From Verrucomicrobiota bacterium (GTDB lineage Bacteria; Verrucomicrobiota; Verrucomicrobiia; Limisphaerales; JADLHS01), in the NCBI GenBank assembly GCA_008933055.1, contig WBXK01000005.1, positions 1 to 38,259 on the forward strand: DNA of 38,259 nucleotides. The letters are read 5' to 3'. Numbering within the stretch: position 1 is the stretch's first letter; the number at the start of each line of letters is the position of its first letter. The notes under the pieces were generated by a model. That model saw nothing but the letters and a program-made list of their open reading frames with translations, was not told the origin of the DNA and did no database searches. Shown piece after piece: positions 26,655-33,140 of the stretch. The position numbers and the translations under genes were made by a program.

Positions 26655-28547
26655 ATGCTCAAGAGCAATTCATTTTTGGCGGTGGATTTTGGCGCAGGTA
26701 GCCTCAAGCTGGCCGAGTTCGAAACGAACGAGGCAGGCGGGCTGGTGCTCAGGCAATACGCAATCAAGTCGCTTGGCCTCGAAGGCTCTCAGGAGACCAA
26801 GCGTGAGGCTCTTATCCTCAAGACGCTTCAGGAGCTGATCGCGTCTCTGGGTATCAAGGCCAAAGACATCAACGTTTGCGCCCCGGGATTCCATGTGTTT
26901 TCCAAGTTCGTGAAGTTGCCGCCCGTGGAAGCAAGCAAGGTCACGCAGATCATTCAATACGAAGCACAGCAAAACGTCCCGTTCCCGTTGGCTGAAGTGG
27001 TTTGGGATTATCAGATTCTCGGAACGACAGCGGGTGGAGAAATTGAAGTGCTTTTGGTGGCGATTAAGTCGGACATCGTGGAAGGCTTGTTCCGCACAGC
27101 GTCGGCCAGCGGGTTAAAGTTGCAGATTTGCGATGTGTCGCCAGCCGCGTTGTGCAATGCGTTCCGTTTCAACTACGGTGAGCTGGAGGATTGCACGATG
27201 TTGCTCGATATCGGAGCGAAAACGAGCAATCTGTTATTCTTTGAGAAGGGCAAGGTTTTCGCCCGCAGCATCAATTTGGGTGCGAACTCTATCACGCAGG
27301 ATTTTGCCAATGAGGCCAAGTTGAAGTTCGACATGGCAGACAAGATCAAGATTGACGAGGGTTTTGTCAGCCTTGGTGGGGCTTACGAAGAGCCTGAGAA
27401 TCAGCATCAGGCGGCTATTTCCAAGATCGCACGGCAGTTCATGACGCGCCTGCATATCCAGGTCAACCAGACCATGCAGTTTTATCGTGGGCAGCAGGGT
27501 GGGACAGCCCCGCAGCGCTTGTTTCTCTCAGGGGGGGCCGCCATCATGCCGTACACGGCTCAATTTTTCGCCGAAAAACTCAGCTTGCCGGTGGAATACT
27601 TTAATCCATTCCGCAACGTGCAGATTGACCCGGGTGTGAATCTGGAAGAGCTCTCCCGCGTGGCTCATTCGTTGGGTGAAGTGGTCGGATTGGGGCTTCG
27701 TAACATGGCGAACTGTCCCGTGGAGTTGAATCTGATGCCGGAAAGCACGTTGCGCTGGCAGAGCTTCAACCAGAAGAAGCCCTATTTCATTGCGACGCTC
27801 GCGAGTCTCGCGCTCATGGCCCTGGCAGTCGGTTTTCTGTTCAGCAAACTGGCATCCGTTAAAAAAGATCAGATCGAAAAGCTTCAGCCTACGATCCAGC
27901 AGTTACAGTCTAAGGAGCAAGGTTTCAAGCGTGCTTACGGTGACTTGAAGAAAATAGAGTCCACCGCCGAACAGTATTCACTGTGGATTGAAGAGAAATA
28001 TCTCTGGGCTGACGTTCTGCGTGAAGTGCGGGCAGCGCTGATTCGAGCTGAAGATTCGACCAAACGCGAATTTGGCACTGACACGGGTGTGTGGATTGAA
28101 ACCTTGAAATCACATACAGCATTAGGTGCCTTGAGTTCAGCGCCCGAGCAGGCGACCCAAGCTCCGGCCGCTCCTAGATATGAAATGGACGCATCCTCTA
28201 GGGCTTTGATGATGCAGCGATATGGCGGCGCTGAAGGACGGTTGCCACCAGAGATGGCTGCCCGGTTTGGTATCGCTCCTGCAGGCCAGCCAGCGGCTGC
28301 AAATCCCGATGGAACAGCGGTTACCAATCAGGTTGGCACGATTAAGATTCAATGTCGTGGTGTGAGTCTCCGTCAGAGTTCCTCTGCAGACAGCAAGGTT
28401 GCGTATGCTGTTCACGCTGAGTTGCTCGCGAGTCCTTTGGTGGATGCTGCTGGGACTCAGCTGGACCCGTCCATAACAGAAGATGAATCGACTGGCACGT
28501 TCAGCTTCGGAATCACCCTTGCGCTCAAAAGCCCTCTGAAACTTTAA
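26655..28547 (+). CDS. PilM-PilN fusion of a type IV pilus-like machine (Amuc_1101-like)
   Basis: 630 residues from the ATG at 26655; the frame is open back to 26535 but that part is unlike PilM. Residues 1-350 are the actin-like PilM domain, with AVDFGAGSLKLAEFE at the start, LLDIGAKTSNLLFFE in the middle and LFLSGGAA later. At about 353-362 comes CPVELNLMPES, which resembles the xINLLP peptide of PilN that binds PilM. A membrane helix (about 376-398) and a coiled-coil-rich periplasmic part of about 230 residues follow, as in PilN. So the two proteins appear to be fused and span the inner membrane. The stop and the next start are separated by a single base. Gene order matches Akkermansia. 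Confidence 0.88.
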   Translation: MLKSNSFLAVDFGAGSLKLAEFETNEAGGLVLRQYAIKSLGLEGSQETKREALILKTLQELIASLGIKAKDINVCAPGFHVFSKFVKLPPVEASKVTQIIQYEAQQNVPFPLAEVVWDYQILGTTAGGEIEVLLVAIKSDIVEGLFRTASASGLKLQICDVSPAALCNAFRFNYGELEDCTMLLDIGAKTSNLLFFEKGKVFARSINLGANSITQDFANEAKLKFDMADKIKIDEGFVSLGGAYEEPENQHQAAISKIARQFMTRLHIQVNQTMQFYRGQQGGTAPQRLFLSGGAAIMPYTAQFFAEKLSLPVEYFNPFRNVQIDPGVNLEELSRVAHSLGEVVGLGLRNMANCPVELNLMPESTLRWQSFNQKKPYFIATLASLALMALAVGFLFSKLASVKKDQIEKLQPTIQQLQSKEQGFKRAYGDLKKIESTAEQYSLWIEEKYLWADVLREVRAALIRAEDSTKREFGTDTGVWIETLKSHTALGALSSAPEQATQAPAAPRYEMDASSRALMMQRYGGAEGRLPPEMAARFGIAPAGQPAAANPDGTAVTNQVGTIKIQCRGVSLRQSSSADSKVAYAVHAELLASPLVDAAGTQLDPSITEDESTGTFSFGITLALKSPLKL

Positions 28548-28548
28548 C

Positions 28549-29598
28549 ATGGACTGGATCAAACGAAATCTGTTGTTCGTAATCGGCGCTGTTGTTGCCT
28601 TGGTCCTAATGGGCGTGGCGGGTTGGTATTGTTTTTCTGGTGCGCAAAATAGTTCTGAGCAAACCGCTAAATTGACCGAAGGCTACACCGAGTTGCAGCG
28701 GTTAAAGAATTTGAATCCCTCCCCCGGGGAAGGCAAGGTCAACAATATCGATCTCGCTAAAGAGCAGCAAAAGGAGGCAGGCAAATTTCTTGGTAAGTTG
28801 GGAACTCGTATTCAGGCCATTCCTGCATTGCCAGAAGGCACAAACATCGCTACCAAGGATTTCTCTTCAGCCTTGCAGGACACCATCAGTGACCTCCAAA
28901 TACAGGCCACCAACAACAGCGTTATACTCCCTCCGAAATATAAATTTTCGTTCGAAAAACAAGCTGGACTCGTAAAATTCGCTGATGGCACTCTTCAGCC
29001 GCTTGCGATTCAATTAGGAGAAGTTAAAGCGATTTGTGAAGTGCTGAACGAAGCTAAAATCAATGCACTTGAAAGCATCCGTCGCGAACGCGTGCCGGGT
29101 TCTCCTGACGATCAGGCAGGAACACCAGGGGACTATGTAGATTTCCAATCCACGACCAATGAGCTTGCAGTAATCACTCCTTACGAGGTGACGTTCAGGT
29201 GTTTCACGCCTGAATTGGCGGGCGTCTTGGCTGGCTTTGCTCGGTCGCCCTACGGATTGTTGGTCAAAGCCATCAACTCTGAGCCGGCACCTGTTTCTGT
29301 AGTGATGGAAACTCCGGTGGCCACCCCTGTTTATAGTCAGCCCGCGCCGCTGGCAGCACCGCGTTCATATCCAGGCGCTGCGGGTCCTGGCGGGTTGCCG
29401 TCAGTTTATAGTCGCTTAGGCAATCAAGGCTTTTCGGATCCTCGTTATGCGGCTCGGCCAACTCCGATACCGCAACCAGTTCAACCTTTAGCTGCGGTTC
29501 AACCTGCAAAAAGCAGTCTGCAAAACTTTCTGGTGGAAAAGCAGCTTAAGATCACGATGCTCGTTCACGTGGTCAAACTTCTACCTCCTCAAAAGTAG
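28549..29598 (+). CDS. Amuc_1100-like inner-membrane pilus protein (PilO-like position)
   Basis: 349 residues with an N-terminal membrane helix at about 9-30 and a periplasmic part. It has the layout of Amuc_1100 of Akkermansia: anchor, helical region with KEQQKEAGKFLGKL, a segment ALQDTISDLQIQA, a ferredoxin-like core with FRCFTPELAGVLAGFARSPY, a Pro/Ala-rich linker (about 245-320), and an end VEKQLKITMLVHVVKL like the matching end in Amuc_1100. By position it would play the PilO role, pairing with the PilN-like part of the preceding protein. It lies one base after pilM and four bases before the next gene. Confidence 0.82.
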   Translation: MDWIKRNLLFVIGAVVALVLMGVAGWYCFSGAQNSSEQTAKLTEGYTELQRLKNLNPSPGEGKVNNIDLAKEQQKEAGKFLGKLGTRIQAIPALPEGTNIATKDFSSALQDTISDLQIQATNNSVILPPKYKFSFEKQAGLVKFADGTLQPLAIQLGEVKAICEVLNEAKINALESIRRERVPGSPDDQAGTPGDYVDFQSTTNELAVITPYEVTFRCFTPELAGVLAGFARSPYGLLVKAINSEPAPVSVVMETPVATPVYSQPAPLAAPRSYPGAAGPGGLPSVYSRLGNQGFSDPRYAARPTPIPQPVQPLAAVQPAKSSLQNFLVEKQLKITMLVHVVKLLPPQK

Positions 29599-29602
29599 CC
29601 AC

Positions 29603-30397
29603 ATGGACCTGCTCAAAAAACATTACGAAAAAATCATTCTCGGCGCTGTGCTGCTCGTATTGGTGGTTGTGGCTGCTTGGTTGCCGATGAAAATTAAAGG
29701 TGAGCGCAGTGGTCTTGAACAGCAAGCCAATGACATCATCAACAAACCTTCCAAGCCTATTGCACCGTTGAATATTTCAACGCAGCAGATGCGTTTCTCA
29801 CGCTTGGCCACAGCGGGAGTGGTTGACCTCTCCACCACCAACAAAGCCTTGAACCCTTTACAGTGGCAGAAGGCCACCGACGGGCGGCTCATCAAGATCC
29901 AGACCGGTAAAGAGACGGGCCCAGACGCTCTCATCGTGACGAATCAGCGTCCGCTTCATCTAGTCATTACCTTTGACTCAGTTAGCACCTCAGACAGCGG
30001 CACGCGATATGTTTTTTATGTGGAGCGCGAGGCGGCCGCAAAGCCTGCAAACCGAGGCAGGAAAGCATTCATCTCCAAAAAAGATGAAAAGAACGAAGTG
30101 TTCGTTTTGCGCCAAGTCAAAGGCCCCCCGGATGCGCCGACCGAAGTGGTCCTCGAGTTGGTCGAAGGCGGAGAGTTGGTCAGCGTGGCAAAAGAGAAAC
30201 CTTTCAAACGCGTGGATGGGTATACTGTGGATTTGCGATATCCCCTCGAAAATCGTCCTCCTTGGTTGAATCAACGCGTTGGCGGTGCTCTTAAATTTGG
30301 CGGCGAGGATTACATTATCGTTGCCATCTCAAAGACGGAAGTTGTAGTGTTGGCAAAATCGAACCAGAAGAAAACGCCGGTTCCCGTTCCGCAGTGA
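29603..30397 (+). CDS. Amuc_1099-like protein, PilP-like
   Basis: 264 residues. A membrane helix at about 10-28 is followed by a periplasmic region with a central beta domain (about 85-185) and a C-terminal segment GGALKFGGEDYIIVAISKTE, similar to the beta end of PilP-like proteins that contact the secretin. By position (before the secretin) and architecture it corresponds to Amuc_1099 or PilP. Direct family motifs are weak, so the function rests mainly on context. Confidence 0.68.
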   Translation: MDLLKKHYEKIILGAVLLVLVVVAAWLPMKIKGERSGLEQQANDIINKPSKPIAPLNISTQQMRFSRLATAGVVDLSTTNKALNPLQWQKATDGRLIKIQTGKETGPDALIVTNQRPLHLVITFDSVSTSDSGTRYVFYVEREAAAKPANRGRKAFISKKDEKNEVFVLRQVKGPPDAPTEVVLELVEGGELVSVAKEKPFKRVDGYTVDLRYPLENRPPWLNQRVGGALKFGGEDYIIVAISKTEVVVLAKSNQKKTPVPVPQ

Positions 30398-30420
30398 CGG
30401 ACGGCGTGTTTTTATTTTTT
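30374..30420 (+). terminator. Possible partial terminator before the secretin gene
   Basis: Arms acgccg (30374-30379) and cggcgt (30402-30407), with an inner ccgt/acgg, form an interrupted stem spanning the 3' end of the PilP-like gene. A T-rich tract, gtttttatttttt, follows to 30420. If active it would lower secretin transcription relative to the three upstream genes. Confidence 0.4.
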
Positions 30421-30446
30421 AGCATCAAGCAAAAGAAGAAGTCATC

Positions 30447-33140
30447 ATGACAAAAGCAGCAATCTACTTCGGCATGGCATTCATCATTGCCTCCACATCA
30501 TTCGCAAATGCCCAAAACGGGGATGTGGATGCCGCCGTGAATCAGGCGGTGTATCGTGAGGCGAATCTCATCCTGTTGCGCCAGAAAATTGAGGAAGGCC
30601 AACAGGCAGTCGCTCGTCGGGATCTTGTTTCTGCCGCAAAAATTTACGATGCCGCCGTGGGGCTTGTAGAGCAGATCGGGCCGAACAACGCCGGTCGCGA
30701 GGCCGCGGCTGCCCTCCAAGGCTTTTCATCTGTCCGTCTTCAGCTCGCGGAAGCCGCGCGTCGCAGGGGTGACTATCGCGAAGTCCAAACCCAACTCGCA
30801 TTGATCCTTAAGGCTGACCCAAAGAATCCCTCAGCAGTCGTTGCAAAGTCCGCTAATGACAAGACGCTGGCCGAACTTGCAGGCGTTATACCCACGCCGG
30901 AAGTGATCAGTGACGCTAAGGCAGAGCGCGCCAATAAAATTACGGCTTCGACTCACGTCACCAACGCGCGCGTTTTGCTTGAGGCGGGCAAACTGGATCA
31001 AGCCGAAGTTGAATTAAAAAAAGCTCTGGCGCTTGATCCCCAGAGCAGTGCTGCCAAACGCCAGGTCAGCCAGCTGCAGGAAGCCCGCTATCGTATCAGC
31101 AAATCCAAGACTGAGCAGGATAACGGTGACAAGATTCTCGAGGTTGTTGACACATGGAACACGCCCAAAAAAGGTGCATCCCTCTCCGTTCCCAATGCCT
31201 ACAATAGCAACAGTCAGATTCATACCGGCAAAGGTCGCCAGGGGATCATGAACAAGTTGAATTCGATCAAGTTCGAGACCTTCCCCTTTGAGGGTGCTCC
31301 AGATACGATGCCGCTCAGTGAATTGGTTCGCATTTTGAGTGAAGAAACTCGCAAGCGCGACACCGAAAAACGCGGGGTGAATATTATCGTAAATCCCAAC
31401 TCAGCGCCTGCCGCTGCCGCTGCCCCATCAGCGGTGGATCCTGCCACCGGCTTACCCGTGGCAGCCCCGCCGGCTGAATCCGTCGACGTTGCTGGAATCG
31501 AAATTAAGCTTAGCCCTCCGCTCCGCAACGTGCGTTTGGCGGATGTCTTGGATGCCGTGTCTAAGGTAGCTCGCACACCTTTGAAGATTTCGTTTGAAGA
31601 GTATGCCGTCGTGATTTCGCTCAAAGGCTCGGAAATAGTGCCTTTGGAATCGCGTATTTTCCATGTGGACCCCAATACGTTCTATCAAGGCTTGGAAAGC
31701 GTTAGTGGATTGACCCTGGATGTTCAGTCATCAAGTGGCGGCGGCGGCGGCGGTGGCGGTGGCGGCGGTGGTGGTGGCGGCGGTAGTCAAAGTGGCTCAG
31801 GCAGCGGATTCATCATTCCGCGTGTGAGCGTGACGAGTGGATCAACTGGCGGCGGTGGTGGTGGTCAGACCGGCGGTCAAGGCGGTGGCCAGAGCGGCCA
31901 GGGTATCGCTGGGTTGACGCGCACTAATGCCATGGAAGCCGTTCATGCAGCGGTTCGCACCTTCTTTGTGACGATGGGCGTAAATCTTGACCCAGCGGTT
32001 GGCAAAACTGTGTTCTTCAACGACCGCGAGGGCTCGCTCTTCGTTCGCGCCACGGCAGAAGAATTGGACATCATCGAACAGGTGATTCGCGTTCTGAACA
32101 TTGCGCCTCCACAGATCAACATCAAGACACGATTCACGGAAATTTCTCAGAACGATAACAAGGCGATTGGTTTTGATTGGTATCTAGGCAATATGTTGTT
32201 TGGCAGTCGTAACAGTTCTGCCCTTTCCGGTGGCACTCAGCCTTCATATCAAGGATCTCCCAGCGTGGGAAATCCTTCAGGAGCGTTTCCTGGAACTTCC
32301 ACCGCAACTGCAATCGCATCGTCTGCTACAGATCAATTGCTGAGTGGCGGTTTGCGGAATAGTTTCGGTAGGGATAATTCTGTCACGCCTGCGCTGGCAA
32401 GCTTTACAGGAATCTTGACAGACCCTCAATTCAAAGTCGTGTTGCGCGCTATCGAACAGCGCGATGGCATTGACCTGCTTAACGAAGGTCAGGTCACGAC
32501 GCTGAGCGGTCGTCAGGCTCAGATTTCTGTGAACGAAGTTAAAACCATCGTCACGGGTATTAATCAACAACAAGGACAAAACGGGGGGGGTAATAATACT
32601 TCCACGGCGGGCGGAAATGGAACAGTCCAGCAAGCTCAAACATCTACCTTCCAGACGCCGACAACCTCCCCGATTCCGCTTGGACCTGTCATCGACGTTT
32701 TGCCGACGGTTTCAGCCGATGGGGTCACGATTCAAATGACGATCATTCCTACTCTCACCGAATTCGTCGGTTACGATTTTTCAACGGCTGAGATATTTGT
32801 ACCTAAAGCGGTTGTTCCCGGCGGTAGTTCAGTGACATCCGTCCTTCCGTTGCCGATTTTCCGCGTCCGCCAGGTCACCACAAGCTGCAGCGTGTGGGAT
32901 GGCCAGACGGTGGTGCTGGGGGGATTGATCTCTGACGAGGTGACGAAGATCAAGGACAAGGTGCCGATGCTCGGCGACCTGCCGTTCCTCGGCAAATTCT
33001 TCCGGAGCGAATCATCGCAGACGCGAAAGAAGAATCTCGTGATTTTTGTAACGCCTACAATCATTGACCCTGCGGGTAACCGTGCCCATCGGGATGAGGA
33101 TCTTCCTTTTTACCAAAGTGCACCAGCGGCAGGGAAGTGA
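30447..33140 (+). CDS. Type IV pilus-like secretin (PilQ/Amuc_1098-like)
   Basis: Outer-membrane pore of the pilus-like machine, 897 residues. A signal peptide (about 1-23, ANAQ) precedes a TPR-like helical region (25-210). N-domains follow: one with TMPLSELVRILSEET (about 280), then RLADVLDAVSKVARTPLKIS (about 360). A glycine tract of 16 residues (431-446) and a second Gly/Gln-rich stretch form a flexible low-complexity region. Next comes a secretin N-domain with AVRTFFVTMGVNLD, then the beta-barrel gate from about 545, ending in the hallmark VVLGGLISDEV, VPMLGDLPFLGKFF and NLVIFVTPTII. It follows the PilP-like gene by 49 bp. The Gly tract should make this gene hard to sequence and prone to length change. 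Confidence 0.93.
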   Translation: MTKAAIYFGMAFIIASTSFANAQNGDVDAAVNQAVYREANLILLRQKIEEGQQAVARRDLVSAAKIYDAAVGLVEQIGPNNAGREAAAALQGFSSVRLQLAEAARRRGDYREVQTQLALILKADPKNPSAVVAKSANDKTLAELAGVIPTPEVISDAKAERANKITASTHVTNARVLLEAGKLDQAEVELKKALALDPQSSAAKRQVSQLQEARYRISKSKTEQDNGDKILEVVDTWNTPKKGASLSVPNAYNSNSQIHTGKGRQGIMNKLNSIKFETFPFEGAPDTMPLSELVRILSEETRKRDTEKRGVNIIVNPNSAPAAAAAPSAVDPATGLPVAAPPAESVDVAGIEIKLSPPLRNVRLADVLDAVSKVARTPLKISFEEYAVVISLKGSEIVPLESRIFHVDPNTFYQGLESVSGLTLDVQSSSGGGGGGGGGGGGGGGGSQSGSGSGFIIPRVSVTSGSTGGGGGGQTGGQGGGQSGQGIAGLTRTNAMEAVHAAVRTFFVTMGVNLDPAVGKTVFFNDREGSLFVRATAEELDIIEQVIRVLNIAPPQINIKTRFTEISQNDNKAIGFDWYLGNMLFGSRNSSALSGGTQPSYQGSPSVGNPSGAFPGTSTATAIASSATDQLLSGGLRNSFGRDNSVTPALASFTGILTDPQFKVVLRAIEQRDGIDLLNEGQVTTLSGRQAQISVNEVKTIVTGINQQQGQNGGGNNTSTAGGNGTVQQAQTSTFQTPTTSPIPLGPVIDVLPTVSADGVTIQMTIIPTLTEFVGYDFSTAEIFVPKAVVPGGSSVTSVLPLPIFRVRQVTTSCSVWDGQTVVLGGLISDEVTKIKDKVPMLGDLPFLGKFFRSESSQTRKKNLVIFVTPTIIDPAGNRAHRDEDLPFYQSAPAAGK
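31737..31784 (+). repeat. Glycine-codon microsatellite in the secretin gene
   Basis: Sixteen consecutive GGC or GGT codons (Gly 431-446). Slippage by whole codons would change loop length without breaking the frame; slippage by 1-2 bases would end the protein early. Confidence 0.85.

Follow-up and report, generated by a model that had tools for sequence, protein, structure and literature searches.

In the model systems of type IV pili, the role of PilM as a stator and the competition between extension and retraction ATPases for PilM are established (PMC11656802). PilM and PilN may also be found naturally in one chain, and GspL/PulL of type II secretion has been described as such a PilM-PilN fusion (PMC10191384; PMC6325625). 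The first-pass annotation of the DNA studied here set its PilM-PilN fusion against classical systems with separate PilM and PilN, and did not mention GspL/PulL; the architecture therefore has a precedent. For the MUL2 locus of Akkermansia muciniphila (Amuc_1101 to Amuc_1098), published work stresses mucin transport and attachment, and not a demonstrated retractile pilus, and no reference structure exists for Amuc_1101/MUL2B (PMC13174399). A description of Amuc_1101 as a PilM-PilN fusion was not found in the accessible literature, and a mention in the key primary papers is possible.

The window, that is, the whole stretch of 38,259 nucleotides that was analysed, is one contig (C5) of a fragmented genome (2.5 Mb in 199 contigs, 78% complete), and its nearest named relatives are MAGs of the Pedosphaera/Limisphaerales group (subdivision 3). 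Four tightly packed genes, separated by 1 to 49 bases between 26655 and 33140, probably encode a type IV pilus alignment complex in which PilM and PilN are joined in one polypeptide (Table 1). The Akkermansia-like gene order annotated initially, 1101-1100-1099-1098, was found here and in all relatives with enough DNA. All four proteins score below the NCBIfam equivalog cut-offs; the first one, for instance, reaches 488.5 bits against a cut-off of 650 for the Amuc_1101 equivalog NF045709, over positions 1-461 of a profile of 608. For this reason we class it as a fused PilM and do not apply the NCBI label of Amuc_1101 equivalog. A run of about 15 glycines is present around residues 430-450 of the secretin. 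The secretin gene is followed by a stand-alone 5'-3' exonuclease gene (PF02739 and PF01367, 33150-34064), an arrangement also present in 44 of the 58 relatives with enough DNA, and at six distant loci.

Table 1. Features of the fused PilM-PilN locus (positions in the window)
Feature	Coordinates	Strand	Basis
Fused PilM-PilN protein, Amuc_1101-like, 630 aa (ATG start)	26655..28547	+	
PilM domain, residues 1-350, actin-like; motifs DFGAGS, DIGAKT, LSGGA	26655..27704	+	PF11104, VIA-align
PilN-type cytoplasmic peptide CPVELNLMP, residues 354-362	27714..27740	+	conservation, phmmer vs 5eou
Membrane helix, residues 378-396	27786..27842	+	hydropathy 2.37
Periplasmic coiled coil, residues 398-473	27846..28073	+	predicted helix; hhalign to split PilN
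Periplasmic GspL/PilO-type domain, residues 479-630	28089..28544	+	VIA-align
Amuc_1100-like protein, one membrane helix	28549..29598	+	NF038287 E 1.9e-14, below its cut-off
Amuc_1099-like protein, one membrane helix	29603..30397	+	NF042425 E 0.03 (weak); synteny
Secretin, N-terminal TPRs, Amuc_1098-like	30447..33140	+	NF042912 E 6e-102, PF00263 E 1.5e-30, TPR_19 E 2.6e-6

The initial methionine of the fused protein is invariant among 65 homologues. A PilM fold in residues 1-350, as proposed at first reading, was recovered by two profiles above their cut-offs, PilM_2 (PF11104; residues 10-350, E 2.9e-38, 132.1 against 27) and the pilM profile TIGR01175 (148.9 bits against 133), and by a VIA-align match of the full model to 2ych (Z 33.8 over 326 residues, rmsd 3.0). 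Next to 2ych, the top matches were 3jc8 (33.3) and 5eou (32.6), the three being close together, and the cytoplasmic domain as a whole was closest to PilM and FtsA structures. An INLLP-like peptide, a membrane helix and a periplasmic region follow, and the reading as a PilM-PilN fusion stands. The peptide VELNLMPES was correctly spotted, at residues 356-364 instead of the 353-362 first given. Residues 378-396 are the sole strongly hydrophobic stretch of the protein, and a single helix is predicted to span residues 363-473. Judging from the sequence, the peptide, the membrane helix and the coiled coil are PilN-type features.

The Pfam PilN family (PF05137) gave no match to the fused protein with E up to 1, and the C-terminal part was aligned with split PilN by hhalign (E 2.5e-7 in global mode, 2.6e-5 in local mode). 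Because the assignment is made by profile-profile and fold comparison, we name this half PilN-like, and not a member of PF05137. Modelled alone, the periplasmic part has a pLDDT of 82, and its best five solved matches in VIA-align are all GspL or PilO: XcpY, with two entries (6ghu, Z 9.4, 78 aligned residues, 22% identity), PulL (5hl8, 9.3), PilO (2rjz, 8.8) and EpsL (2w7v, 8.5). These values are modestly above those of unrelated structures (Z 8.3 and below), and GspL and PilO come on top in VIA-align only, Foldseek alone finding no significant match for this part (best E 0.06). An insert at about residues 489-556 of the periplasmic domain is modelled with low confidence.

The junction between the two halves is conserved. 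All 65 homologues have C354, P355, V356, E357, N359, L360 and P362, with L or M at residue 358, and a chance match of CPVELNLMP is thereby ruled out. Distant members of the phylum mostly have INLLP-like forms, such as CPIEINLLPP and GVNLLPDE, and a few have drifted. The same genome carries a split pilM-pilN-pilO-pilP operon on another contig (C174), whose relatives continue into a secretin, and in half of 16 relatives the split pilM and pilN share a reading frame, interrupted between the two genes by one stop codon. When aligned by eye, the split PilM-PilN junction (..GAAISTF(stop)HMPIRINLLAE..) and the fused one (..GLRNLAHCPVELNLMPES..) match residue for residue, C354-P355 of the fused protein standing in place of M1-P2 of the split PilN. 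The likely origin of the fused gene is therefore an ancestral pilM-pilN pair from which the stop disappeared. Using phmmer, the natural junction GLGLRNMANC-PVELNLMP was aligned with that of the 5eou chimera, GLALRSFDSSGMARINLLP; it is a near match to the junction engineered in the Pseudomonas aeruginosa PilM-PilN1-12 chimera.

The full-length model of the fused protein has a pLDDT of 80 (72-76 in the peptide region), and its best Foldseek match is 5eou_B. The PilN-bound structures 5eou and 2ych fit the model better (TMt 0.79-0.83) than the unbound PilM structures 5eox, 5eoy and 5eq6 (0.66-0.69), which suggests that the PilM domain is modelled in the PilN-bound conformation. In VIA-align, residues 5-363 of the model are aligned with residues 10-366 of 5eou_B, reaching the PilN part of the chimera, and an intramolecular contact between peptide and cleft is compatible with the model. 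The peptide of one chain might likewise lie in the cleft of its neighbour. Rings of PilM around PilB have been proposed (PMC8389850), and a peptide filling the groove of the next subunit would cross-link such a ring. This variant, which we hold to be unlikely, may draw on the R349-N359 spacing, near-constant across most of the fused family, which leaves little slack; the model and 5eou align within one chain up to residue 363, an agreement that says only that the two chains run the same way.

The fused form is widespread. A strong match to the Amuc_1101 profile, free of internal stops, is present in 53 of 57 relatives of the same order, including one in which contig ends seem to have cut the gene into two pieces. 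Across Verrucomicrobiota, about 118 of 145 genomes have the fused gene (120 at E up to 1e-40, of which two are limited to roughly the first 200 profile positions). All of the 80 nearest loci are fused; 77 of them also have 1100 and 1099, and 75 have 1098, the remainder being short contigs, and the gene order is kept in distant members of the phylum. In the PilM tree, the fused proteins, that of Akkermansia included, form one clade (support 100/99) apart from split PilM, a group that carries a long-branch warning. Since the split operon of the genome studied forms a clade of its own, the fused gene does not derive from it; the converse, a secondary splitting of the fused gene into the split operon, is ruled out, each forming its own clade with full support. 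The fusion is an old one. In the complete genomes of the genus treated here as Akkermansia, the fused protein is about 32% identical to that of the window. One genome recorded as A. muciniphila (L060) has a protein 91% identical to it, and is probably a misnamed MAG.

The first-pass annotation noted no pilB, pilC or pilT close by, and searches with the PilB/PilT and PilC families indeed gave no match on the window contig. A pilB-pilT-pilB-pilC cluster is present on contig C27 of the same genome; the system is therefore probably dispersed, and unlikely to be motorless. Across 24 genomes, the presence of the fused gene and that of a pilB/pilT/pilC set agree in all cases (19 have both, the window genome included, and 5 have neither; Fisher p 2.4e-5, read from listed gene positions and ignoring kinship). 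PilT is usually part of the set that goes with the fused gene. Of the 18 other genomes carrying this gene, most of them complete, 17 have it as their only clear PilM, with PilB, PilT and PilC types present; G139 has two further, distant PilM matches.

The motor genes themselves vary in layout. The retraction ATPase gene lies apart from two pilB genes and the pilC gene in Akkermansia and in G134, and the extension ATPase gene lies apart from the other motor genes in G102. A diverged fused gene accompanies a full motor operon in G155. No PilC-type gene at all was detected in G098, G128, G092 and G113, and the PilC-type genes present in G144 belong to other systems, this genome having neither this motor set nor any PilM. 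The remote motor operon of Akkermansia is 51-55% identical to that of the window genome. As the motors are located away from the fused operon in nearly every genome examined, the pairing of the two is statistical, among genomes that are not independent. Two further loci of the genome studied hold related genes. A PilC/GspF-type gene with several stops (C8:30564-31391) is probably a pseudogene or a frameshifted copy. On C173 (positions 1-2071 of locus L055), a TPR and MshEN protein adjoins a PilB-type ATPase that runs off the contig end; the two frames are perhaps one frameshifted gene, of a further pilus-like system.

Could the locus encode a polysaccharide uptake or attachment apparatus of the MUL2 kind, whose motor-driven pilus was lost? 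The Akkermansia locus is MUL2, which has been linked to mucin transport and processing, with attachment as a proposed function (PMC13174399), and only 1 of 70 relatives has a pilin-like gene upstream. A loss of the pilus is nevertheless improbable, for the fused gene tracks the PilB/PilC set across the 24 genomes, and the stator domain has kept its ATP motifs. Moreover, retractile pili could also underlie uptake, such that this scenario and a pilus alignment complex are not mutually exclusive.

Among the neighbours, the Amuc_1100-like protein is a probable counterpart of PilO/GspM, and hhalign aligns it weakly with split PilO (prob 56). We assume, by position only, that the Amuc_1099-like protein takes the PilP/GspC role; hhalign found no similarity between it and split PilP, and profiles of these two proteins found no solved structure. 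The TPR-secretin may act as PilQ; GspD gives it the higher score, 149 bits against 97 bits for PilQ. A type II secretion cluster (F, H, J and K) on contig C146 includes a GspL-like protein of its own, which matches PilN weakly. Neither Pfam nor NCBIfam gave a match of the fused protein to the T2SSL profile (GspL cytoplasmic domain) with E up to 1, and no GspL cytoplasmic-domain structure was among the fold matches listed for the full model. The proposal that the four genes supply GspL, GspM, GspC and GspD to a type II secretion system encoded for the rest elsewhere, the fusion being simply GspL, accounts for the domain order, for the periplasmic fold closest to XcpY/PulL/EpsL, for the higher GspD score and for an L-M-C-D-like gene order, but it is very improbable, because the cytoplasmic domain is of PilM type by family cut-offs and by structure, and because the C146 cluster already has an L-like protein; the INLLP-like peptide kept in the fused protein, and the PilT usually included in the motor set that tracks it, also count against it.

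Domains, distribution and motor co-occurrence together argue for a type IV pilus alignment platform, probably, with its motors encoded elsewhere. In such a platform, the PilM domain would form a cytoplasmic stator socket around the PilB and PilT motor ATPases. The groove-binding PilN peptide would come directly after the last PilM helix, and be followed by the membrane helix, the coiled coil and the periplasmic domain; the latter would pair with the Amuc_1100-like protein, in the role of PilO/GspM, and the Amuc_1099-like protein would make the link to the TPR-secretin. PilB and PilT, together with PilC, all from another locus, would drive extension and retraction. For the genome studied, we infer that the motors of contig C27 serve the fused operon; as a counterpoint, a second, split pilMNOPQ set, present in this taxonomic order, could serve the same motors. 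Covalent attachment of the peptide would keep PilM at the membrane permanently, probably in its PilN-bound state, with its groove presumably occupied at all times.

In P. aeruginosa, PilN binding reportedly alters the structure of PilM and its binding partners (McCallum et al. 2016, cited in PMC8389850). A tentative extension of our reading, on the doubtful side, is that the type IV pili of a whole phylum work with a PilM that always carries its PilN peptide. If this is true, the change from extension to retraction motors and back would not require release of PilN; alternatively, the switch would consist of an intramolecular release, or of a swap between neighbours in the ring. Being an ancient natural fusion with nearly the junction of the chimera, the protein would offer a ready-made test of whether binding of PilN to PilM must be reversible. 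Amuc_1101/MUL2B would gain a concrete role, that of a stator plus PilN, and candidates are indicated for the motors that power the pilus-like system of Akkermansia.

The locus resembles Amuc_1101-1098 (NF045709, NF038287, NF042425, NF042912) in the order and orientation of its genes, in a protein of the same fused-PilM clade and in a TPR-secretin, whereas a pilin gene of the Amuc_1102 kind is absent upstream. Like GspL, the fused protein joins, in a single chain, a cytoplasmic actin-like domain to a ferredoxin-like domain in the periplasm by way of one membrane helix; it differs by its PilM-type cytoplasmic domain and by the PilN groove peptide that it has kept, and the genome has a separate GspL-like gene. 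The classical PilM and PilN of Pseudomonas, Thermus and Myxococcus have the same PilM fold and ATP motifs, and likewise an INLLP-like peptide, a membrane helix and a coiled coil. However, classical type IVa pili use two genes where the window has one, and the 1100- and 1099-like proteins are too diverged for Pfam to recognize them as PilO and PilP. The 5eou chimera has nearly the same junction and spacing as the window protein, but it is man-made and ends after PilN residue 12, while the natural protein continues through the whole PilN-like part.
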